Assembly: GCA_030604825.1 (NCBI GenBank) | Contig: JAUVVB010000002.1 | Span: 1-64,000 of the forward strand | DNA length: 64,000 nucleotides | Direction: 5' to 3' | DNA from: Chloroflexota bacterium | Lineage (GTDB): Bacteria > Chloroflexota > Dehalococcoidia > E44-bin15 | Part shown: positions 6,932 through 55,384 of the stretch, in pieces | How the letters are laid out: each line of letters begins with the position of its first letter | How positions within the stretch are numbered: the stretch's first letter is position 1 | Translations under genes and position numbers: made by a program | The notes under the pieces: model-generated | Database searches by the model: none | Told to the model about the DNA's origin: nothing | Seen by the model: only the letters and a program-made list of their open reading frames with translations

Positions 6932-7477
6932 GTGCAGGAGGAGAGGAGCCTGGTGGAGCGGGCGCAGCGGGGGGATGGGGAGGCCTTTGCCAGGCTCTAC
7001 GAGGAGAATTTCGACAGGATCTATCGCTACATCGCGCTCAGGGTAGGAGGCAAGGCCGATGCCGAGGACCTCACGGCGCAGGTCTTCCTCAAGGCGTTGG
7101 AGTCCATCGCTTCCTTTAGGTGGCGCGGGGTGTCCTTCTCCGCCTGGCTGTTTCGCATCGCTCGTAATCTGGCCATCGACCAGCTGAGGAAGAAGGGAAG
7201 GGAAGGACGTCTCGGTGATGAACCCGTTTACCATTTCGACCTGGCGGCGGTGGCAGAGAAGAGGCTAACTATGGAGCAACTGGTCATTGCCGTAGAAGGG
7301 CTCACTCCAGCCCAGAGGGATGTGATCGCCCTTCGTTTTGCTGCCGGCTTGTCCATCACCGAAACGGCCAAGGTCCTGGGAAAGAGGGAAGGGGCGGTGA
7401 AGGCGCTGCAACATAGCGCCCTGGTGGCGCTTAGAAAAAGGCTTTATCGCTGGCGGAACGATGAGCAGGGAATTTGA
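6932..7477 (+). CDS. sigma-70 family RNA polymerase sigma factor
   Basis: AQRGDGEAFARLYEENFDRIYRYI, ADAEDLTAQVFLKALE, LTPAQRDVIALRFAAGLSITETAKVLGKREGAVKALQHSAL; GTG start proposed in the 6536 ORF frame. Confidence 0.85.
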   Translation: MQEERSLVERAQRGDGEAFARLYEENFDRIYRYIALRVGGKADAEDLTAQVFLKALESIASFRWRGVSFSAWLFRIARNLAIDQLRKKGREGRLGDEPVYHFDLAAVAEKRLTMEQLVIAVEGLTPAQRDVIALRFAAGLSITETAKVLGKREGAVKALQHSALVALRKRLYRWRNDEQGI

Positions 7478-8186
7478 AGCAATCCTGGATGAGTGCCTCC
7501 AGCGTCTGCTGGAGGGCGAAAGCGTGGAGCACTGCCTTGCCCGCTACCCGGAGCAGGCGGCGGAGCTTGAGCCCTTACTCCAGGTTGCCCTCGCTGCCAG
7601 GGAGGCATCAGCCATTGAGCCCCGCCCTGAATTCAAGGCTCAAGCAAGGTATCGGCTTCAGTCGGCGCTCACAACTGGGGTGAAGCGGCGTCAACGGAGG
7701 GGACTACGCCTCAGGTGGCAGTGGGCCTTGCCTCTAGCTATTGTGCTTTTCCTCATCCTCGCCGGTGGCAGCACAGTGGCTGCCTCCTCAGCAAGCCTTC
7801 CCGATGAGCACCTTTACCCGGTGAAGACCAGGGTGGAGCAGATAAGGCTATGGCTTACCCCAACGGACATGGGTAAGGCCCGGCTACATGCTCAATTCGT
7901 CAACCGGCGAACAGAGGAGATTGCCCAAATGGTCCACCGGGATAAGACCGAGGTGGCGGTGAGAGTGGCTCACCGCCTGGAGGCTCATCTGCAGCAGATA
8001 AGGCGCCGCGCTCATGGGCCTGGGATACATGACCTGAGGCAGTTCTTGCAGCAGCACGCTGCCGGGAATCTGGCCACCCTTCAGGCCCTGGAGGAGGAAA
8101 GGCCTGCCCTTCGCCCTGCCCTGGAGCGGGCAAGGGAGGCCTATCTGGAAACCCTTCAAGCTATCCAAGGGGGTGAGGGAAAATGA
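7461..8186 (+). CDS. DUF5667-like single-TM protein, candidate anti-sigma partner
   Basis: Overlaps sigma gene; one TM (ALPLAIVLFLILAGGSTVAAS) followed by LPDEHLYPVKTRVEQIRLWLTPTDMGKARLHAQFVNRRTEEI. Confidence 0.7.
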   Translation: MSREFEAILDECLQRLLEGESVEHCLARYPEQAAELEPLLQVALAAREASAIEPRPEFKAQARYRLQSALTTGVKRRQRRGLRLRWQWALPLAIVLFLILAGGSTVAASSASLPDEHLYPVKTRVEQIRLWLTPTDMGKARLHAQFVNRRTEEIAQMVHRDKTEVAVRVAHRLEAHLQQIRRRAHGPGIHDLRQFLQQHAAGNLATLQALEEERPALRPALERAREAYLETLQAIQGGEGK

Positions 8187-9362: not shown

Positions 9363-9713
9363 ATGTGGGAGCTGCTCAAGGTCTTCAAAGCCCTCTCTGA
9401 TGAAACCAGGATGAGAATGCTTCACTTGCTTTTGGATGGGGAGCTCTGCGTCTGCGAGATCATGCAAGCCCTGGAGATATCCCAGACTCGCGCTTCCCGA
9501 AACCTGGGCATCCTCAGGGATGCTGGCCTCCTCAGGGACAGGCGTGGGGGGAAGTGGGTTCATTACTCCCTGAACCAGGAGGTCGCCACCCGGTATTCCG
9601 AGCTGTTGGAGCTTTTGAGAAACCAACTGACAGAAGACCAAACGATGGTGGAAGATAGGGCTAGGCTCGAAAAGGCGGTGAAGATAGGGAGGCAGGGGGA
9701 CAGGGACTGTTAG
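9363..9713 (+). CDS. arsR: ArsR-family transcriptional repressor (start corrected from 9327)
   Basis: RBS GGAGGAGG at 9353-9360; FKALSDETRMRMLHLLLDGELCVCEIMQALEISQTRASRNLGILRDAGLL. Confidence 0.92.
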   Translation: MWELLKVFKALSDETRMRMLHLLLDGELCVCEIMQALEISQTRASRNLGILRDAGLLRDRRGGKWVHYSLNQEVATRYSELLELLRNQLTEDQTMVEDRARLEKAVKIGRQGDRDC

Positions 9714-9734
9714 AAAGAACGGGGGAGAATAAGG

Positions 9735-9947
9735 ATGATCGAAGCCAGAAAAACGGCTGTAGCCCTTGAGGAAGGGGAATTGATCGAGCTAGCGAGGATC
9801 GTCATCGACCGCGATGAGAAAGAAGCCCTCAGGTTCTTGAAGAAATCTGTGTATGATAAGGTAGCCAAAGCGCAAAGGGGAAGGCTTAAATCTCATCTGG
9901 ACACCGGCGGCGAGAGCCCGGTGGAGATTTTCAAGAAAGGTGGGTGA
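9735..9947 (+). CDS. small conserved-looking protein of unknown function in ars operon
   Basis: Tightly spaced between arsR and ferredoxin, same strand, overlaps next gene start by 4 nt. Confidence 0.6.
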   Translation: MIEARKTAVALEEGELIELARIVIDRDEKEALRFLKKSVYDKVAKAQRGRLKSHLDTGGESPVEIFKKGG

Positions 9948-10297
9948 GCCTCGTGCCTGACCCAAAATTCGACCTCTGGCATGGCGTGAATAGAAAGGAC
10001 ATCGAGTGGTATCCGAGGGTTGACGAGGAGAAGTGTAAAGGTTCTGGTATTTGTGTCACCTCCTGTGGTCGCCGGGTTTTTCGCTATGACTATAGGCGTC
10101 GAAAGGCGAAAGTGGTTTATCCCTACAACTGCATGGTGGGCTGCCAGACCTGCGGCAGCCTTTGCCCTGAAGGAGCCATCTCCTTTCCAGGAGGGAGGGA
10201 AAAGGTGCAGCAGATCGTGGCGCAGTGGGATATCTTATCCAGGGTGAAAGAGGAGCTGGAGGCAAGAAGAGAGGACCTAGAGTTCAAGGAGGAATGA
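9944..10297 (+). CDS. 4Fe-4S dicluster ferredoxin-like protein
   Basis: EEKCKGSGICVTSCGRRVF and YNCMVGCQTCGSLCPEGAISFP. Confidence 0.85.
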   Translation: MSLVPDPKFDLWHGVNRKDIEWYPRVDEEKCKGSGICVTSCGRRVFRYDYRRRKAKVVYPYNCMVGCQTCGSLCPEGAISFPGGREKVQQIVAQWDILSRVKEELEARREDLEFKEE

Positions 10298-10804
10298 ATG
10301 GATGTCGTCGTTCTCAGGGCAAGACAGATAGGGCCATGGCTACTCCACCCCTATGTCACATTGGCCAGCCGGATAGCTCTGGGCGGGATTTTCATCTTCG
10401 CTGGTATAGCCAAGCTGCCCTACATCAACACTCTAATATGGGAGATCAACCAGTACCATATCCTGCCTCACGGCCTGGCCACCGCATATGGTTACGTGCT
10501 GCCCCCTCTGGAGATTGCGCTGGGAATTCTTCTGGTCGTGGGGCTATTCCTCAGGATCAGCGCCTCGGTCAGCGGATTGGTAGTGCTGAGCTTCGCTATT
10601 GCCAAGATCACCGCCCTTGCCCGAGGGTTGGACATTGGTATCTGCGGTTGCTTTGGGCCGGCAGTCCCCTTGCTTGCTGTGCAAAGTCTGGTTATTGATT
10701 TTGTGCTTCTGGCCCTGGCTTTTCAGATACTGTTCCACAGGGGCGAATTCCTCGCTCTAGGGCGTTGGCTGTCTCGAAAAGCAGAGCACGGTGAGGGTTC
10801 TTGA
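10298..10804 (+). CDS. MauE/DoxX-like membrane protein
   Basis: SRIALGGIFIFAGIAKLPYINTLIWEINQYHILP..., four TM-like segments and GICGCFGP motif. Confidence 0.78.
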   Translation: MDVVVLRARQIGPWLLHPYVTLASRIALGGIFIFAGIAKLPYINTLIWEINQYHILPHGLATAYGYVLPPLEIALGILLVVGLFLRISASVSGLVVLSFAIAKITALARGLDIGICGCFGPAVPLLAVQSLVIDFVLLALAFQILFHRGEFLALGRWLSRKAEHGEGS

Positions 10805-10851
10805 CGGAAGCGAAGCGACAAAAGCTATGAAAAGGAGCCAGTCAAGGTAAT

Positions 10852-11934
10852 ATGGAAAAAGAACGAAGGCTGGGCATCTGGGAGAAATACCTGACCATAT
10901 GGATTGCCCTCTGTATTCTGGCGGGAACAGGTCTGGGCCGGCTTTTCCCCCAGATTTCCGATTTTCTGGCCAGGCTTGAGGTAGCCCACATCTCCATCCC
11001 CATCGCCATCTGCCTCTTTGCCATGATCTACCCCATAATGGTTCAGATAAGCTGGGAGGAGATAAAGGGGGCATTGCGCTCACCAAAGCCCATCGGTCTC
11101 ACCCTCTTCGCAAACTGGGTGGTAAAACCATTCACCATGGCCCTCTTCGCCTGGCTTTTTTTAGGCGTTATATTCTCCCAATTCCTCACCCCTGATCAGA
11201 TCCAGCAGTACCGTGCAGGTCTGATCCTGCTGGGAGTGGCCCCCTGCACCGCCATGGTGCTGGTGTGGAGCTACCTGGCGAGGGGAAACATGGGGCACAC
11301 CCTGGTGATGACGGCAATAAACTCTCTGACAATGGTGGTCCTGTATGCGCCTTTGGCTATGCTTCTGTTGGGGATCTCGGGCATAAGGGTGCCCTGGGAA
11401 ACCATAGCTCTTTCCGTGGCTATATACATCGTTACCCCCCTGATCGCCGGGTATATCACCAGGAGGCAGGCGATCAGAAGGAGAGGTATGGAGTGGTTTG
11501 AAACCAGGCTGGTTCCCCCTTTGGCTAAATTGTCCATTATCGCCCTGCTTGTCACATTGATCGTGCTCTTCACCTTTCAAGGCTACCTGATCATCGAACT
11601 ACCCGCCATAATAGGAATGATAACGGTTGGCATTCTAGTTAACATACTGGTTGTATTCGGTGTCACCTATGTTGCCGCCAGGTTTTTGAGGCTTCGGTAC
11701 GAGGATGCAGCGCCAGCTGCCATCATCGCTGGCAGCAATCACTTCGAGGTGGCGATAGCGGTGGCAACCACCCTCTTCGGCGTGGCATCGGGGGCTGCTT
11801 TGGCTGCCGTAGTTGGCGTTCTGACCGAGGTTCCTATCATGCTCTCCCTGGTGTGGCTCTGCCGGGCTACCAGGCGGACCTTTCCTAAACCGTTGCCAGC
11901 AGTGGGGGTAACATCCTCAGAAGGAAAACGTTAA
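10852..11934 (+). CDS. acr3: ACR3-family arsenite efflux transporter
   Basis: CLFAMIYPIMVQISWEEI, GVAPCTAMVLVWSYLARGNMGHTLVMTAINSL, AAIIAGSNHFEVAIAVA. Confidence 0.93.
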   Translation: MEKERRLGIWEKYLTIWIALCILAGTGLGRLFPQISDFLARLEVAHISIPIAICLFAMIYPIMVQISWEEIKGALRSPKPIGLTLFANWVVKPFTMALFAWLFLGVIFSQFLTPDQIQQYRAGLILLGVAPCTAMVLVWSYLARGNMGHTLVMTAINSLTMVVLYAPLAMLLLGISGIRVPWETIALSVAIYIVTPLIAGYITRRQAIRRRGMEWFETRLVPPLAKLSIIALLVTLIVLFTFQGYLIIELPAIIGMITVGILVNILVVFGVTYVAARFLRLRYEDAAPAAIIAGSNHFEVAIAVATTLFGVASGAALAAVVGVLTEVPIMLSLVWLCRATRRTFPKPLPAVGVTSSEGKR

Positions 11935-46094: not shown

Positions 46095-46877
46095 TCATCC
46101 TCCAACCAGAGCAAGGTACCAGTGGCTCATCGCCTCCCCCCAGATGATGGTAACCATGGCTGCCGTGGCCAGGAAGGGGCCGAAGGGGATGGCTTCCTTT
46201 AGCCCTCTCACCCTGGTTAGCAGCAGGATTATGGCCACCAGCCCTCCACCAAGGATCGCCAGGAAGAGGGAGATGAAAACGAGCGGGAAGCCGGTGGCCA
46301 ATCCCACCAGCCCTGCCAGCTTTACATCCCCTCCCCCCATGCCCCCCCGGGAGATTAGATAGGGTATGAGCATCAGGCCAAAGGCTATTGCCCCGCCTAA
46401 AAGGGCACTGAGGGCGCTGATCTCGGGCCAGAAGAAGGTCAGGCCAAGCTTGGACCAGAAGAATGAGAAGAGGAAGGCCAGCGCCATCCCCGGATAGACA
46501 ACGTTGTCCAGGATCAGCTCATGCTCTAAGTCGATGACGATGATCATCAGGAATAGGGAGGCGTAGATGAGGGCCATGGCAAGCTGGGGGCTGAGGCCAT
46601 ATTTCCAGGTGAGGAGGGCGAAGAGCAGGGCGGTCCCGAGTTCCACGATGGGAAGCCGAGGGGAGATGCGGGCGCCGCAGTAGCGGCAGCGACCGCGAAG
46701 CCACAGGTAGCTGAAGAGGGGCACCAGGTCCTTGGCCCTCAGCCTTTGGTGACAGGCGTCGCAGTGGGAGGGGGGTCTGATTATGGATTTACCCTGGGGA
46801 AGGCGATCCATGCACAGGTTTAGGAAGCTGCCTAAAGCAAGTCCAAGGAGGGCGAAGATGGGTATGGCAGCGCTCAT
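46095..46877 (-). CDS. pilD: prepilin peptidase (A24 family)
   Basis: LGSFLNLCMDRLPQGKSIIRPPSHCDACHQRL, CRYCGARISPRLPIVELGTALLFALL, GGMGGGDVKLAGLVGL. Confidence 0.95.
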   Translation of the reverse strand: MSAAIPIFALLGLALGSFLNLCMDRLPQGKSIIRPPSHCDACHQRLRAKDLVPLFSYLWLRGRCRYCGARISPRLPIVELGTALLFALLTWKYGLSPQLAMALIYASLFLMIIVIDLEHELILDNVVYPGMALAFLFSFFWSKLGLTFFWPEISALSALLGGAIAFGLMLIPYLISRGGMGGGDVKLAGLVGLATGFPLVFISLFLAILGGGLVAIILLLTRVRGLKEAIPFGPFLATAAMVTIIWGEAMSHWYLALVGG

Positions 46878-47755: not shown

Positions 47756-48307
47756 CTACTCCGGCTGAGCATAGACCTGTATGTAAAAGGTCATTGACCA
47801 GATAAGGGTGTCGCTATCATAGGCGAGCTCCACCTCATCCATTTTGATGGTCTCATAAGGGGGGTTCTCCTCCACCCCGGCGAGGAAATCGAATATCTCA
47901 TCCAGGGTGCCGCTGACGGTGGTCTCGTAGGAGAAAAGCCGATATTCGGTCTGGCTTCCGTTTACAGCCTCGTCGGTCACGTCCCCTTCGGTCCAGGAGT
48001 CGATGTGCGCCCCGGCTTCCTCTGCCGCCGTCCTCACATGGTCATATATAACATTGTCCTCCACATCCATGGGGAAAGGCGCTTCCTCTAACTGCTGCAG
48101 CAGGTTGGTAAGATATGCTTGCAGCTCCTCGATGTCGTAGGTCTGCTCAAACGCGTCTATTTGCGCCTCCACCGCAGCCAGATCGGCGGACAGTGCACCC
48201 TTGCTGCTACCATCCCGGTAATACCCTATGCCGAAGTAGATGTTACCTGCCAACAGGGCGATCACGATCAGCAGGAAGAGGGCCTGAAACCCGGAGGGCC
48301 TCCTCAT
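47756..48307 (-). CDS. pilO: PilO-like pilus assembly protein
   Basis: Single N-terminal TM (LFLLIVIALLAGNIYFGIGYY), coiled coil, position between pilM and pilN. Confidence 0.6.
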   Translation of the reverse strand: MRRPSGFQALFLLIVIALLAGNIYFGIGYYRDGSSKGALSADLAAVEAQIDAFEQTYDIEELQAYLTNLLQQLEEAPFPMDVEDNVIYDHVRTAAEEAGAHIDSWTEGDVTDEAVNGSQTEYRLFSYETTVSGTLDEIFDFLAGVEENPPYETIKMDEVELAYDSDTLIWSMTFYIQVYAQPE

Positions 48308-50136
48308 TGGTCACCTCCAGGCAATGTCACGGTGATGGCAAAGGTATAGTCACCGGCGGCGGCCGCAATGGCAGCCCTGATGTCGTCCAGCCAGACGACG
48401 CAGGCACCTGGGTCACGGTTTGCATATAATGCCACCGACTGAACGCAGCCGAGATCCGAGGGATAGGTTGGGGATAGAATAACCTCCGTCCAGGTATCGG
48501 CGGTGAGTGCCGGAATACCCAGTGTTTCCACCGGGGTGGGTAATCCTACGGTCAGGTACACCGTCAGTTTCTGCGGAGAGTTGATGGCACCCGGGTCTGA
48601 GATACCCCGGTCTGAGATGGTGATGGTGGCAGTGTAGCTGCCAGCGGTGAAAGCAGGAGGACCAATGATGTCTACCGCCACCGTGACACTGGTCTTATCC
48701 TCCTCCTCCTGCCCGTCGGAGTCGCCGCTGGTAGGGCTCAATTTAAGCCAGGCGGCGCTGCTGGTCGCGGTCCAGTACAGGGTTGCGCCACCCGAGTTCC
48801 ATATCTGCAGGGTCTGTTTCGCCGGGTTTGTTGCTTCCCTGGTACAGAAGATGAAGCTGAGCGGGCTAAGCCCTATTTCGGGCGGTGCGACTGGTGTGGG
48901 GGTAGGGACCGGCGTCGGGGTTGGGTATGGAGTGATGTTCAGGGACACCGGCACCGTCTGCGGGGTGTTGGTGGCGCCCGGGTCCGAGATGGTGATGGTG
49001 GCTGTGTAAGTGCCAGCAGCCAGCCCGGTGATGTCCACCGAGACGGTGACATCGTCCATCTCCCCGGTGGAGTCGCCGATGCCGGGAGCAAGGCTGAGCC
49101 AGGCGCCATCATCGCTCACCGTCCAGTTTAGGGTTCCGGTACCCGAGTTCCATATACGCAAGATCTGGTCTTTAGGGTTAGTTCCCCCTACGGTTGCACT
49201 GAAGCTAAAGCTTGAAGGGCTGTACGCAATCGTGGGAGCGGCAGGCGCGGGGAGGGCGGGGGAATACAATACGAGCTGGAAGACCCCCGCCGGCTGGTCT
49301 GTGCTGCTCTTAATCCAAAATGTGATGTGCTTGGCGTCGCGCAGGTCTGTTGAAATGTTCTGCACATCCTCGTGGGCAACTAAACCGGAGCTGAAGGGGG
49401 CGGAGATGCTCTGCTTGGCGCTGGCAAACCGCGCCTTATAATCCAGGTAATCTGTGAAAGAAAATACGCTGCTTGCTGGGTTCCACTCATCCTCACAATC
49501 CTCGATAACGATGTCGGACAAGCCGTTGGTGGTGACGCGTTCCGTTTCTGTGATGTCGACTGAGGTGAATAGCCCGGTATCTTCCAGGGCTGCGGCATAT
49601 TGGCTGATCAACTCAGTGGTGGCAGCGGTGCCCTCAATGGTCAAAGAGCCCTGGGTGATGGCGGTGATGGTAACCCCGACGGGGGCGGCATCCTCGATCG
49701 CCTCCAGCACCTCAGACCAGGTAAACGTGGTCTGGGAAAGGGCGGTGTGGTCCTGCCCCATAGCGCCGAGCAAGCCCTCAAGCTCATCGATGCGCTCGTT
49801 CAAATCGCCGGCCTCGCCAGCTAGGCTTAGCAGGAAATCGCGGTAGTCCTCTCTGTCGGCCAGGGTATCCTGTAAGCTATCGATATCTGCGTCTTGCTCA
49901 TGCCAAAGCCCGTAGAGATTCGGTATATCATAATCCTCAGCGAGCTTGTCGAAGGGGGAGAAAGGGAAGAAGGGGAATATCAGATAGCCTGTGACCAGGG
50001 CCAGGATTACCAGCATAACGCTGAATAGCGATATAGGCGCTGGCGCTCGCGCCACCGCAACCCGGCGCAGGTTCAGCTTTATTAAGCTTGGCCGGCGATG
50101 GTGAGTATGCTCAGGTTCGCGTGGCGCTGCCATCAT
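48304..50136 (-). CDS. pilN: PilN-like protein with large nested extracellular-type insertions (jelly-roll plus two BACON-like repeats)
   Basis: PilN-type start (SLIKLNLRR...ISLFSVMLVILALVTGYLI) and end (AGDYTFAITVTLPGGDQ); interior ITFWIKSS...VWLDDIRA and two WTVSDDGAWLSLAP / WTATSSAAWLKLSP units. Confidence 0.75.
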   Translation of the reverse strand: MMAAPREPEHTHHRRPSLIKLNLRRVAVARAPAPISLFSVMLVILALVTGYLIFPFFPFSPFDKLAEDYDIPNLYGLWHEQDADIDSLQDTLADREDYRDFLLSLAGEAGDLNERIDELEGLLGAMGQDHTALSQTTFTWSEVLEAIEDAAPVGVTITAITQGSLTIEGTAATTELISQYAAALEDTGLFTSVDITETERVTTNGLSDIVIEDCEDEWNPASSVFSFTDYLDYKARFASAKQSISAPFSSGLVAHEDVQNISTDLRDAKHITFWIKSSTDQPAGVFQLVLYSPALPAPAAPTIAYSPSSFSFSATVGGTNPKDQILRIWNSGTGTLNWTVSDDGAWLSLAPGIGDSTGEMDDVTVSVDITGLAAGTYTATITISDPGATNTPQTVPVSLNITPYPTPTPVPTPTPVAPPEIGLSPLSFIFCTREATNPAKQTLQIWNSGGATLYWTATSSAAWLKLSPTSGDSDGQEEEDKTSVTVAVDIIGPPAFTAGSYTATITISDRGISDPGAINSPQKLTVYLTVGLPTPVETLGIPALTADTWTEVILSPTYPSDLGCVQSVALYANRDPGACVVWLDDIRAAIAAAAGDYTFAITVTLPGGDQ

Positions 50137-50266: not shown

Positions 50267-51310
50267 TTATTGGCTCTCATAGGTGTAGGTGACAATGTCC
50301 AACGGGTCCGGTCCCATTATATAGCTTATGACCGTAGTCCCTCCTGCTGTGGCGGTGACCCCATAAATTGCAACGTCTAAATCCCAGGTTAAATAGATGT
50401 CATGCCGGTTCGTCCTCGCCCAGGAAAAAGCCCCCTCAGGATCCTCATCTGCCGGGGTAAATTGAAAGGACAGGCCGTGCACATACGGGGGCCCGGCGCC
50501 TGAATTGAAATTGACGGCGGGATCAAAATCCCACACATAGGCTTTACCATCGCGGAAGGGGCTTTCCGTGGGCGCGGCAGTGACCAGCGTGCCACTGACG
50601 GTTGCACCGCTGGAGTGGGGAGCAGCGATAGTATTGTCAGCTCCTCTGGTGCAGCCGGTGAATGCCGCGTTGTCCGTATCCGAGTACTCGATCAGCTCGT
50701 CCTCGATGTGTAACACACCCGTTGGGGGGAAGAGGGCAGTGCTAGCCACGGGGATGATGGTAACGGTCTCATCAATGTCCTGGGTTAGCGTGGTTACGGC
50801 GGCACTCGTCCCAGCGACGTAGCTAAAGCCAGAGGGCAGCCAGATACCTATTCTATTTATCCACAAATTTCCTTTTGCTCCATCATAGGCGATATCGATT
50901 TGGTAAGTGCCAGCCTCGGTAGTATGCCCCGTTGTCACCAATGCGCTATGGGGCTCTGTCCCTTGATGTTCGTCCTCTACCTCAAAGCCCTCGAGAATCC
51001 AGATGTGTTCTATGGTAACGGCTACTTCGTTGCCATTTATATCTGCTATCGTGTACTGGTAGGGCGGATCATCCGCGCTTGGGGGTAGATTGGCATCGAC
51101 GTTCTGTATTTTGTATACCGCATCCTCTATGCCGGCATCAGCGGCATAAAACCTCTGCATGATGTCCTCTTGAAGCTGGGCGGACTTGATGCTGGTGGTC
51201 ATGAGCAGCAGCAGGGGTACCAGGATGAGGCCAGCCACGATTAGCAGGATTAACACCGTAACCAGGGCGTAGCCTGCCTCATTTTTTCTGGGCTTGATCC
51301 TTTTCCCCAT
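50267..51310 (-). CDS. PilX-like pilus accessory protein with phage-fibre-style module
   Basis: NEAGYALVTVLILLIVAGLILVPLLLLMTTSIKSAQLQEDIMQRFYAADAGIEDAVY; internal GVLHIEDELIEYSDTDNAAFTGCTRGADNTIAAPHSSGATV; ATG 51310 preferred. Confidence 0.75.
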   Translation of the reverse strand: MGKRIKPRKNEAGYALVTVLILLIVAGLILVPLLLLMTTSIKSAQLQEDIMQRFYAADAGIEDAVYKIQNVDANLPPSADDPPYQYTIADINGNEVAVTIEHIWILEGFEVEDEHQGTEPHSALVTTGHTTEAGTYQIDIAYDGAKGNLWINRIGIWLPSGFSYVAGTSAAVTTLTQDIDETVTIIPVASTALFPPTGVLHIEDELIEYSDTDNAAFTGCTRGADNTIAAPHSSGATVSGTLVTAAPTESPFRDGKAYVWDFDPAVNFNSGAGPPYVHGLSFQFTPADEDPEGAFSWARTNRHDIYLTWDLDVAIYGVTATAGGTTVISYIMGPDPLDIVTYTYESQ

Positions 51311-51335
51311 CACGCTTCCTCCCACTACGCCACCG

Positions 51336-51848
51336 CTAGGATAGAGGCCTGGCCTTAACATTGTACGTTCTAGTGGCGGTCTCTTCCCCAACCTGAGCCG
51401 TTATCACCAGGGTGAGCATTCCTCCATCCCAGCTACAGCTGGTGTTTGCCGAATCGATATATCCGGCGACAAAAACGGTCTCTGCGGAGCCACCGTTAAC
51501 TGAATAAGCCCGCATCAGCTTCTTGAGACCATCGTCGGCGTCTGCCAGGGTGTAATCAACCTGATGTTCATCGCCTTCCCAGTCAAGCCATACCAGGGTG
51601 ATGAACTCCGGGGTTGCCGGGTCACTGTCAACCGTAACCTGTTGAGCCATCACCGCATCGTGGCTGACCCAGGAACCGGCGTTCTGCACCTGACCAAAAG
51701 CAGCCATATAATTGCTATCACGATCGCTGGAGGTAAAGAGCTGATGAATCCCGCTCGCCACAGCAGCCACTATCAGAGCGGAGATAGCCATAACTGCCAA
51801 TAGCTCCAGCAGCGTCAACCCCTTTTGGTTCAAAGGCTTCGCACTCAT
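51336..51848 (-). CDS. prepilin-like protein (PilW/GspJ type)
   Basis: NQKGLTLLELLAVMAISALIVAAVASGIHQLF. Confidence 0.82.
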   Translation of the reverse strand: MSAKPLNQKGLTLLELLAVMAISALIVAAVASGIHQLFTSSDRDSNYMAAFGQVQNAGSWVSHDAVMAQQVTVDSDPATPEFITLVWLDWEGDEHQVDYTLADADDGLKKLMRAYSVNGGSAETVFVAGYIDSANTSCSWDGGMLTLVITAQVGEETATRTYNVKARPLS

Positions 51849-52246
51849 CGGTTCACCTTATAGCTTTCGGTGGTGAGCAACAGCTCACCTTCAAAGTAGA
51901 CCTCGACCGTTACCTGCTGAATGCCGTCGTCATTATCAATGCCGTCGCCCTTGGGGTCCAGGCGCTCGGCAGCGACCTCAATGGAGTAGCCAGCAGGGAT
52001 GTTTATATTCGGGTCTACATCGTATTGAGGATGACCGGGGTCGAGGCTGTCGTCGTAAGCAATGTACTTGATATATTCCAGCTCGGTTCGGGTCAGGCTC
52101 TCGGCAGTAGTTCGCTGATTGACGCCAAATGTGGTTTTGTGACTCACGGTCAAAGCGGTAGCCAGCCCACTCGCTATCACCCCCAGAATAACCAGGGCTA
52201 TCAATACCTCGACCAGGGTCATTCCCTTTTGGTTGCCCAATCTCAT
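51845..52246 (-). CDS. prepilin-like protein (PilV/GspI type)
   Basis: NQKGMTLVEVLIALVILGVIASGLATALTVSHKTT. Confidence 0.85.
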   Translation of the reverse strand: MRLGNQKGMTLVEVLIALVILGVIASGLATALTVSHKTTFGVNQRTTAESLTRTELEYIKYIAYDDSLDPGHPQYDVDPNINIPAGYSIEVAAERLDPKGDGIDNDDGIQQVTVEVYFEGELLLTTESYKVNR

Positions 52247-53454
52247 CCCCCCATTTGCCCCATCATGGAGTATATTGGGGTGATAATGGAGAGGGCGAGG
52301 AGGGCCACGAAGAGGCCCACCACCAGAACCAAGGCTGGCCCCAGCATCCCGGTGGCCCGGGCAATGGCCTTGTCTGACTCACCGTCATAGAAATCCGCCA
52401 TCACCTCCAGATTTGCCTCAAGCCTACCGCTCTGCTCACCAACCCCCACCACCTGGGAGAGGAGGGGTGGGAAGACAGGCTGTTCCATCAGTGCCCGAGA
52501 CAGGGTCTCCCCGGAATGGATATCGGAACGCACCTTTACCAGCGCCTGTTTAAGCGGCAAGCTTCCCGTTGTCTCTATCACCAGGTCGAGGGCCTCGGTG
52601 ATGGGAATGCCGCCCCGAATCAGGGTGGCGATGTTTCTCGCCAGCCGGGACATGCTCCCCTTGATGGAGATGTCGCCAAATAGGGGCATGCGCCATAGGA
52701 GGAAATCCTTGTTCTTGCTTCCCTGGGGGGTTTTGACATACCACCATCCGATACCAACAACGAGCGACAGGCCAATGATTATATACAGGATGTTACCTCT
52801 GACGAAATTGGCGAGGGCCAGCATTATCCTGGTGAAGATGGGCAACTCCCCGCCAAAGGCGGTGAAAAGGCCGCTCAATGCCGGTATGACGAAGCCGAAC
52901 ATTACTCCCCCAGCGACAATGCCCAGGACGAGCACCATGACGGGGTAGATCATGGCATTCCTGATCTTGCTGACGACGGCAGCCTCCTTCTCCATATGTA
53001 TCACTATTTCCCTCAGCATTAGCTCCAGGTTTCCTATCTCCTCCCCTACCCTTACCAGGCGCAGATAGAAGGGGGAAAATACCTTGGGGTGTTTGGCGCA
53101 CGCGTCGGAGAAGGGGCTGCCCGTCTCCACACCCCCGATGAGCTGCTGAATCACCTTCTTCATGCCCGCCTTATTGGTTCGCCCATGGAGCATATGTAGC
53201 GCGGGGAGGATGGCAATACCCGAGGTGAGCAAGGTGGCCAGGTCGCGGCTAAAATAGACCACGTCATTGCGGCTGATCCTGGAGAGGAAAGGCAGTGCCT
53301 CATCCAGGGAGGGGGGTGTGACCTTCTTCTCCAGGCTGATGATGGTGAGCTGGGATCGCCACAGCGCCGCCTCAGCGGCGTGCTCCGAATCAGCCTCAAG
53401 CGTGCCCTTGGTCATACTGCCGTCAGAAGTGCTGGCCATGTATTTGAACCACAT
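52243..53454 (-). CDS. pilC: type IV pilus inner-membrane platform protein PilC/GspF
   Basis: FSRDLATLLTSGIAILPAL, FYLRLVRVGEEIGNLELMLREIV, RLARNIATLIRGGIPITEALDLV, VVGVGEQSGRLEANLEVMADFYD. Confidence 0.95.
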   Translation of the reverse strand: MWFKYMASTSDGSMTKGTLEADSEHAAEAALWRSQLTIISLEKKVTPPSLDEALPFLSRISRNDVVYFSRDLATLLTSGIAILPALHMLHGRTNKAGMKKVIQQLIGGVETGSPFSDACAKHPKVFSPFYLRLVRVGEEIGNLELMLREIVIHMEKEAAVVSKIRNAMIYPVMVLVLGIVAGGVMFGFVIPALSGLFTAFGGELPIFTRIMLALANFVRGNILYIIIGLSLVVGIGWWYVKTPQGSKNKDFLLWRMPLFGDISIKGSMSRLARNIATLIRGGIPITEALDLVIETTGSLPLKQALVKVRSDIHSGETLSRALMEQPVFPPLLSQVVGVGEQSGRLEANLEVMADFYDGESDKAIARATGMLGPALVLVVGLFVALLALSIITPIYSMMGQMGG

Positions 53455-53603: not shown

Positions 53604-55313
53604 TTAGCCAATGGTGAAGACGTTACGGATCACCTCCCCAGGGGTAGTTATCCCTTCCTTGACCTTGAGCATGCCATCGCGGCGCATACTGGTCATTCCC
53701 TCTCTCAGGGCCTGTTGCTTAATCTCCGCAGCTCCTGCCTCCCGGTTCACCAGCTGCCTTATTTCGTCGCTCATGGTGAGCAGTTCGAAAACCCCGATTC
53801 TGCCCAGAAAGCCGGTATGGGAGCAGAAGCTGCAGCCGGTGCCATAGGCAAATTCGGTTTTCTCCTCCCCCATCTCATGCTGGTAAGCCATTGCCTCGAC
53901 GAGGGGGGCTTCTCTCATCTGCCTGCAGTAGGGGCAGACCTTCCTCACCAGGCGCTGCGACATAGCTCCGATAACTGCCGAGGTAACCAGGAAGTGCTCC
54001 ACCCCGAAATCGAGGAGGCGAACGATAGCACCGGCGCCATCGTTGGCGTGGATCGATGTCAGCACCAGGTGACCGGTGAGGGCAGCCGTTATCGCCGTAT
54101 TTGCCGTCTCTGCATCGCGGATCTCGCCGACGAGGATTACATCGGGGTCGAGGCGCATGATGGCCCTCAGCCCACTGGCAAAGGTTATGTCCGCAGCGCG
54201 ATTAACCTGCATCTGCTGGATCCCCTGGAACTGGTATTCAACGGGGTCCTCGATGGTCATGATATTGAGCTCTTGGCAATTTAGCTTGCTCACCGAGGCG
54301 TAAAGGGTGGTGGTCTTGCCCGAGCCGGTAGGACCGCTGATCAGGGTCATGCCAAAGGGGGAGTGAAGCGCCTTCTGGTAGGTCTCCAGGATACTGGGGG
54401 GCATCCCCAATGCGGAGAGCTCTATTATGGACATGGATTTATCCAGTACCCTGAGCACCGCCATCTCCCCATGATTGGTGCCCACGGTGGCAACGCGGAA
54501 ATCCACATCTTTGCCGGCGATGGTGGCGCTGAACTGGCCATCCTGGGCGCGGCGGCGTTCGGCGATGTTCATGTTGGACATCACCTTGATCCTGGTGAGC
54601 AGCGCTGAGTGGACTTCCTGGGGCAGGCTAACGGCGTTGTGGAGCACGCCATCAACCCGGTAGCGAACCTGAACCTCTTCCTCCTGAGGCACGATATGAA
54701 TATCCGATGCCCTGTCCTTCACCCCCTGGGTAAGCAGCATCTCCACCGCTCGCACTATGGGGGCATGGCTGATCGCTTCCAGAGTGAGGGTTGGCTCCGC
54801 TACCCCCCTTCCTCGGGCGGTGGTCAACAGCTGTCTGATTTCCTTCTCTATCTGGGTGGTCAGCTTGTATTGGGTATCGACGGCCTCGCGGATGCCACCA
54901 CTAAGGGGGATGATCGGCTTTATCCGCTTCTTGGTGAGCACGGCAAGGGTATCGATGAGTTGTAGATTATCGGGATCCTCCATGGCCACGGTCAGGGTAT
55001 CGCCATCCACCGATAGGGGCAGAATGTTGTGTTCCCGGGCCACCTCTTCAGGGATCAATGCCAGAGCGGAGGCCTGAACCTGCACCTGCTTCAGATCCAC
55101 TGCGGGAACATTTAGCTGGAAGCTGAGAACGGTGGCAAGGGTCTCATGGCTGACGAGGCGTTGCTCGATCAGGATATCCTTCAGATCCTTATTGGAATGT
55201 TGGGCAGCCTGTCTGGCAGCTTCGAGCTGTTCCTTGGTGATGAATGCCCCTTCCACTAGGAGCTCGTCTATCTGCTTCCGGTTTCGCAGTCCCCTTGACT
55301 CTGCCTCGGCCAT
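53604..55313 (-). CDS. pilB: type IV pilus assembly ATPase PilB/GspE
   Basis: ISGPTGSGKTTTLYASVSKLN, RAIMRLDPDVILVGEIRDAETANTAI, CPYCRQ...CSFCSHTGFLGRIGVFELL; start at 55313 or 55343. Confidence 0.96.
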   Translation of the reverse strand: MAEAESRGLRNRKQIDELLVEGAFITKEQLEAARQAAQHSNKDLKDILIEQRLVSHETLATVLSFQLNVPAVDLKQVQVQASALALIPEEVAREHNILPLSVDGDTLTVAMEDPDNLQLIDTLAVLTKKRIKPIIPLSGGIREAVDTQYKLTTQIEKEIRQLLTTARGRGVAEPTLTLEAISHAPIVRAVEMLLTQGVKDRASDIHIVPQEEEVQVRYRVDGVLHNAVSLPQEVHSALLTRIKVMSNMNIAERRRAQDGQFSATIAGKDVDFRVATVGTNHGEMAVLRVLDKSMSIIELSALGMPPSILETYQKALHSPFGMTLISGPTGSGKTTTLYASVSKLNCQELNIMTIEDPVEYQFQGIQQMQVNRAADITFASGLRAIMRLDPDVILVGEIRDAETANTAITAALTGHLVLTSIHANDGAGAIVRLLDFGVEHFLVTSAVIGAMSQRLVRKVCPYCRQMREAPLVEAMAYQHEMGEEKTEFAYGTGCSFCSHTGFLGRIGVFELLTMSDEIRQLVNREAGAAEIKQQALREGMTSMRRDGMLKVKEGITTPGEVIRNVFTIG

Positions 55314-55384
55314 TCTGGCAACCCCCTCTCCTTGGGTGGACAACTAGATTGCCTAGCTTTAACCTCAAATACAGGGTGCAAAAT

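Follow-up and report, generated by a model that had tools for sequence, protein, structure and literature searches.

A pilN-like gene in a type IV pilus cluster of a Chloroflexota bacterium, probably of the class Dehalococcoidia, encodes, as sequence comparison confirms, a real PilN interrupted by a jelly-roll that is itself interrupted by two BACON_2 domains. The gene lies in a 64,000-nucleotide stretch of one contig (the window; Table 1), within an intact cluster on a single strand that comprises a PilB-like ATPase, a PilC-like protein, three pilin-like proteins, pilN, pilO, pilM and a presumed prepilin peptidase. A sequence-only reading of this DNA had proposed the three-level anatomy (PilN, jelly-roll, BACON pair), and it is borne out by the split of a profile built from homologs only and by Pfam matches of PilN and BACON_2 above their cut-offs. 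Additional observations go beyond that reading: unrelated inserts occur at the same site in other PilNs, the jelly-roll is mobile in phage virion proteins, and a neighboring pilin carries a phage-baseplate-like module.

The pilN gene sits beside pilM and pilO, and the start of pilO overlaps its stop; the 183-aa pilO-like product has no significant Pfam match and was assigned by position and by this overlap. The pilN reading frame and composition are intact and no GC break accompanies them, leaving a compositional island at pilN unsupported, and a plus-strand reading of the same interval was rejected because it is full of stops. At the corresponding pilin of a related locus (L062), a similar phage-baseplate-like module is visible in the sequence, and in another relative (G001, L060:3726-5648 (-)) the pilin-like product encoded at this position is 640 aa long and apparently holds two jelly-rolls, neither of which is matched by any Pfam family.

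Table 1. Features of the pilus cluster and segments of the pilN product (residue numbers refer to the 610-aa protein).
Feature	Position in window	Strand	Evidence
Prepilin peptidase (PilD-like), presumed	46095..46877	-	Sequence
pilM-like, 290 aa	46874..47746	-	PilM_2 27.0 bits, at cut-off
pilO-like, 183 aa	47756..48307	-	Position, size, membrane helix; overlap with pilN recurs in relatives
pilN-like with nested domain insertions, 610 aa	48304..50136	-	Single open frame; Pfam PilN 32.5 bits
PilN part, residues 1-200	49537..50136	-	Pfam, AF2 elements, alignment with 198-211 aa orthologs
Jelly-roll, first half, residues 208-293	49258..49515	-	Homolog-only profile 2-89, i-E 3e-13
BACON_2 repeat 1, residues 299-405	48922..49242	-	Pfam BACON_2; 70-74% aa identity to contig C13 repeats of the same genome
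Pro/Thr-rich linker PTPTPVPTPTP, residues 406-418	48883..48921	-	Direct reading; AF2 confidence low
BACON_2 repeat 2, residues 419-531	48544..48882	-	Pfam BACON_2, best stretch 424-489
Jelly-roll, second half, residues 532-590	48367..48543	-	Homolog-only profile 91-149, i-E 3e-11
PilN last strand GDYTFAITVTLP, residues 595-606	48319..48354	-	AF2 strand 597-604; last-strand PSSM
Pilin-like with phage baseplate/tail-like module at about residues 196-268	50267..51391	-	PHROG 2885 baseplate wedge, E 4.8e-10
PilC-like platform protein	52243..53454	-	T2SSF 190 bits
PilB-like assembly ATPase	53604..55343	-	T2SSE 417 bits

The N-terminal part has the layout of PilN (PF05137), a component of the type IVa pilus assembly/alignment complex: a cytoplasmic tail precedes a single membrane helix (residues 37-56, modelled and visible as a hydrophobic stretch in the sequence), which is followed by a coiled coil (modelled at 74-134) and by a ferredoxin-like core up to the penultimate strand. 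The Pfam match covers residues 143-205 (32.5 bits against a cut-off of 22.8; profile positions 2-66 of 78). Together with the pilO and pilM neighbors these features liken the protein to known PilNs, from which it differs in its 390-aa insert, the whole of which separates the penultimate strand of the fold from the last, and in a degenerate INLLP-like motif. Within the insert, a jelly-roll profile made from nine homologs, the window protein left out, splits in order into residues 209-295 (profile 2-89, i-E 3e-13) and 533-591 (91-149, i-E 3e-11), with almost no profile positions missing and with 237 aa between the two pieces that hold both BACON domains. Alignment of the query with the intact jelly-rolls alone (MAFFT) gives the same split (207-297 and 534-590), while a MAFFT run on the PilN, jelly-roll and BACON pieces together put them in the wrong places and was discarded. 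In the structure predicted for a homolog (pLDDT 89), the interruption maps to the loop that joins strands six and seven. The BACON_2 family (PF19190) matches in two tandem stretches (49.4 bits against a cut-off of 25), and the tandem pair with its Pro-rich linker resembles the BACON_2 repeats of bacteria and crAss-like phages, from which it differs in lying inside a jelly-roll loop inside PilN.

The sequence-only reading had named an AlphaFold model of the 610-aa protein as a check, and the full-length AF2 model (mean pLDDT 70, pTM 0.34) agrees with the nesting, with a PilN-like series at residues 140-200 (H140-150, E155-161, E166-171, H174-186, E192-200), a last strand at 597-604 and beta-sandwich strands in between. 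The input alignment of this model was selected from about 1,800 trial subsets scored for correct piece placement, so that its nested topology leans on the choice of alignment, whereas the profile split does not. Because the full-length model is modest and its alignment was picked for placement, the nesting rests on the homolog-only profile split.

The one soft point of the nested anatomy is the final strand. A 12-column last-strand score, trained on 33 uninterrupted PilNs and applied without the loci cut by contig ends (L067, L069, L169, L171 and L174), places the best window within the C-terminal 70 residues in eight of nine insert-bearing PilNs, the query included, although these nine proteins are related and the tests are not independent. 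In the query, GDYTFAITVTLP is the top window by a narrow margin (10.7 vs 10.4 for the best other window of the insert); for seven of the other eight proteins the C-terminal window scores highest, mostly with a wider margin. This narrowness would suit an arrangement in which the jelly-roll and BACON domains were fused behind a complete PilN domain, the C-terminal strand lying outside it. We consider such a fusion very unlikely: the AF2 model places a strand at 597-604, the same last-strand signature follows the insert in those seven proteins, and the Pfam PilN match, which extends to profile positions 72-77 in most uninterrupted PilNs, ends here at 66 of 78. Even harder to credit is an assembly chimera of two genes, which the sequence-only reading had named as one of two findings that would overturn it. 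The genome is indeed a draft of 30 contigs, and BACON repeats similar to those of the window lie on two other contigs, but these copies are only 53-74% identical in protein, no second jelly-roll copy was found in a search of the genome contigs, the single frame continues naturally on both sides and overlaps pilO, and same-site PilN inserts occur in independent genomes. Thus, misassembly of pilN is unlikely, given the paralogous BACON repeats elsewhere in this genome and the overlap between pilO and pilN. The arrays on the other contigs lie at about 7127-7807 (G000:C13) and about 9603-10946 (G000:C15; four copies with a Pro/Thr linker).

The sequence-only reading had proposed to check whether orthologs lack one or both insertions: four orthologs of 198-211 aa, three from the family of the query and a fourth from its order, lack the whole block. 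A peptide-pattern search of the genome contig collection with the whole protein returned no relative. In a tree of the PilN core, the query groups with the three insert-free PilNs of its family (support 96/87) on a long branch (1.22), and the simplest reading is a gain of the insert inside this family. Because close relatives do without any insert, it is not essential for pili in the family. The query also departs from its orthologs at the INLLP-like motif, IKLNLRRV vs IDLNLLPP (window 50029-50136 (-)), where the flanking RRPxLIxLNL is kept and LPP is lost, which makes PilM binding by this PilN uncertain. The degenerate motif and the long branch together suggest that relaxed function or altered constraint is possible. 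A different motif has been reported for monoderm PilN (PMC6916266), so the INLLP form may not define the PilN family here.

Up to 400 genomes of the class and up to 400 of the phylum were searched, and the loci retrieved from them revealed other Chloroflexota PilNs of 416-1074 aa that carry an insert at the same site, unrelated to that of the query. In these proteins the penultimate strand is followed by a Pro/Thr-rich linker and a carboxypeptidase-regulatory-like domain (CarboxypepD_reg), in some cases with additional F5/8C discoidin domains (F5_F8_type_C; best cases E 9e-12 and 3e-18); only part of the group reaches the Pfam cut-off, the rest being assigned by visible similarity. Most of the carboxypeptidase-regulatory-like PilNs end in a C-terminus like SVSFVIILEVA. 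In those of the other insert-bearing genomes where it was readable, pilO comes directly after pilN, its start only a few bases away from the pilN stop, and encodes a short product (171-186 aa). The tree sets the carboxypeptidase-regulatory-like group apart from the query and its family by one change (support 93/28; one change in 200/200 bootstrap trees). Since the PilN tree separates the two insert groups, at least two origins of inserts at one site are the simplest reading. In the open-access literature, nothing relevant was found on a PilN that bears carbohydrate-binding or discoidin domains.

Intact relatives of the jelly-roll are present in other proteins. It was detected in 59 viral loci of one collection scan and in 9 of another, the two overlapping, with a hand-made consensus of the jelly-roll alignment rows as the query of one of them; its viral hosts include major tail tube and minor tail proteins, tail spikes and head-tail adaptors; among its cellular hosts are Chloroflexota archaellin-like proteins and tandem arrays in candidate-phyla bacteria. 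Judged by these sequence matches, it is a roaming module that the virion proteins of phages share with a core machine of the cell. In one phage adaptor-like protein (L034:703-2250 (+), residues 29-337), a domain unrelated to the BACON pair (PHROG 2448 region, residues 117-259) splits the jelly-roll in that very loop (profile 3-93 and 96-147), so that the loop is itself an insertion site. Other relatives (L100:3704-5389 (+), L154:1636-3357 (+) and L156:2692-4386 (+)) are broken elsewhere, near profile positions 114-130. Three tandem copies per protein are seen in the candidate-phyla bacteria L102, L104, L105 and L106, and three Chloroflexota proteins of 366-370 aa (L020:1243-2346, L101:3722-4819 and L103:2147-3256) share a similar layout with the jelly-roll at about residues 93-249. 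The archaellin family (PF01917) is matched by the first of these and by four members of a 42-protein set.

The homolog model has a beta-sandwich of the carbohydrate-binding module (CBM) type, and its best PDB matches are mostly CBM families. Foldseek ranks families 30, 8, 11, 4 and 22 closest (E about 1e-5, TM about 0.55), a likeness in predicted fold to CBM30/CBM11/CBM22-type modules and to phage tail receptor/decoration domains. Unlike the CBM modules, the jelly-roll is matched by no Pfam family and no named CBM sequence family, in the query or in the intact homologs, and its identity to the structural matches is mostly 11-18%. As its fold is closest to CBM families, it is plausible that the jelly-roll contacts glycans. 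BACON domains have been treated as linkers or spacers, not as proven sugar binders (PMC11216935, PMC6949934), and by analogy the pair is more likely a spacer than a glycan binder.

Neither secretin nor Omp85 turned up in the genome of the window or in 13 comparison genomes, all drafts, whereas positive controls were detected; the monoderm-like setting suggested by the sequence-only reading is thereby supported. The extracytoplasmic part of PilN should therefore face the wall or S-layer directly, as far as absence from draft genomes indicates, and the insert would project outside the membrane because PilN has a single membrane helix. The suggestion of a complex that is surface-exposed or binds glycan is plausible, and we infer the facing side of the insert, its tether role and its glycan ligand. 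The reading that we favor, at roughly an even chance of being right, is that of a type IV pilus PilN in Chloroflexota devoid of an outer membrane, with an insert serving as extracytoplasmic tether or spacer against the envelope. A beta-sandwich module would have entered the hairpin before the last strand of the ferredoxin-like domain, and the loop of this CBM-fold jelly-roll would have been occupied by the two Ig-like BACON domains. The BACON pair could keep the jelly-roll at a distance from the PilN/PilO ring, or pad it, so that it may touch the cell wall or S-layer, perhaps the glycans thereof, and the insert might stabilize a pilus base that lacks PilP and PilQ.

An unlikely alternative, to which we still grant appreciable weight, is that the insert is passive decoration: an insertion-tolerant loop would have taken up a mobile beta-sandwich from the local pool of phage and surface proteins, later kept by drift or as a steric spacer with no partner. 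The embedding of the jelly-roll in many unrelated virion proteins, the different insert in the same loop of the phage adaptor-like protein, the orthologs that do without the block, and the long branch with its degenerate motif would all fit; yet at least two separate origins at one site suggest use, as does the retention of the other insert across families, in some cases with F5/8C domains, and the intact frame and composition with no GC break also speak against passive decoration. Less probable again is an adhesin role, in which the insert, displayed at the pilus base, would attach to outside glycans or surfaces (particles or other cells) and not to the cell's own envelope. PilN lies at the membrane, probably beneath the S-layer or wall, and known pilus adhesins are filament pilins (PMC8179133), whereas the CBM-like fold, the discoidin domains of the parallel PilN group and the apparent lack of an outer membrane covering the insert would favor such a role.

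The favored tether or spacer has partial counterparts. For the large PilO of monoderm Firmicutes, a role in fixing the machinery to the wall has been proposed (PMC6916266), and Litorilinea aerophila has a LysM-bearing PilO and a PilN beside its archaellum locus (PMC12488501). In these cases, as here, a protein of the assembly complex gains an extracytoplasmic part in a cell without an outer membrane, and wall anchoring has been proposed; here, however, PilN is enlarged, by internal insertion and not at the C-terminus, and pilO encodes only 183 aa. ComZ of Thermus thermophilus is different, being a DNA-binding tip protein of the pilin fold (PMC6561018), whereas PilN differs in fold and is a membrane assembly protein. 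A broader proposal, which we put forward tentatively and with more doubt than confidence, is that in Chloroflexota without an outer membrane PilN, and not PilO, is the envelope-anchoring subunit, and that its pre-last-strand hairpin is a recurrent docking site for independently mounted beta-sandwich modules (jelly-roll and BACON, or carboxypeptidase-regulatory-like and discoidin) that would grip wall or S-layer glycans and replace the PilP-PilQ link.

It is an unsolved problem in the field how the type IV pilus machine is retained in, and crosses, the envelope of a cell that has no outer membrane (PMC6916266). For holding this machine, a PilN whose extracytoplasmic modules are large and arose at least two times at a single site is a concrete candidate. 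Additionally, the case shows three-level nesting, a domain in a domain in a domain, and a module common to phage virions and a core cellular machine.
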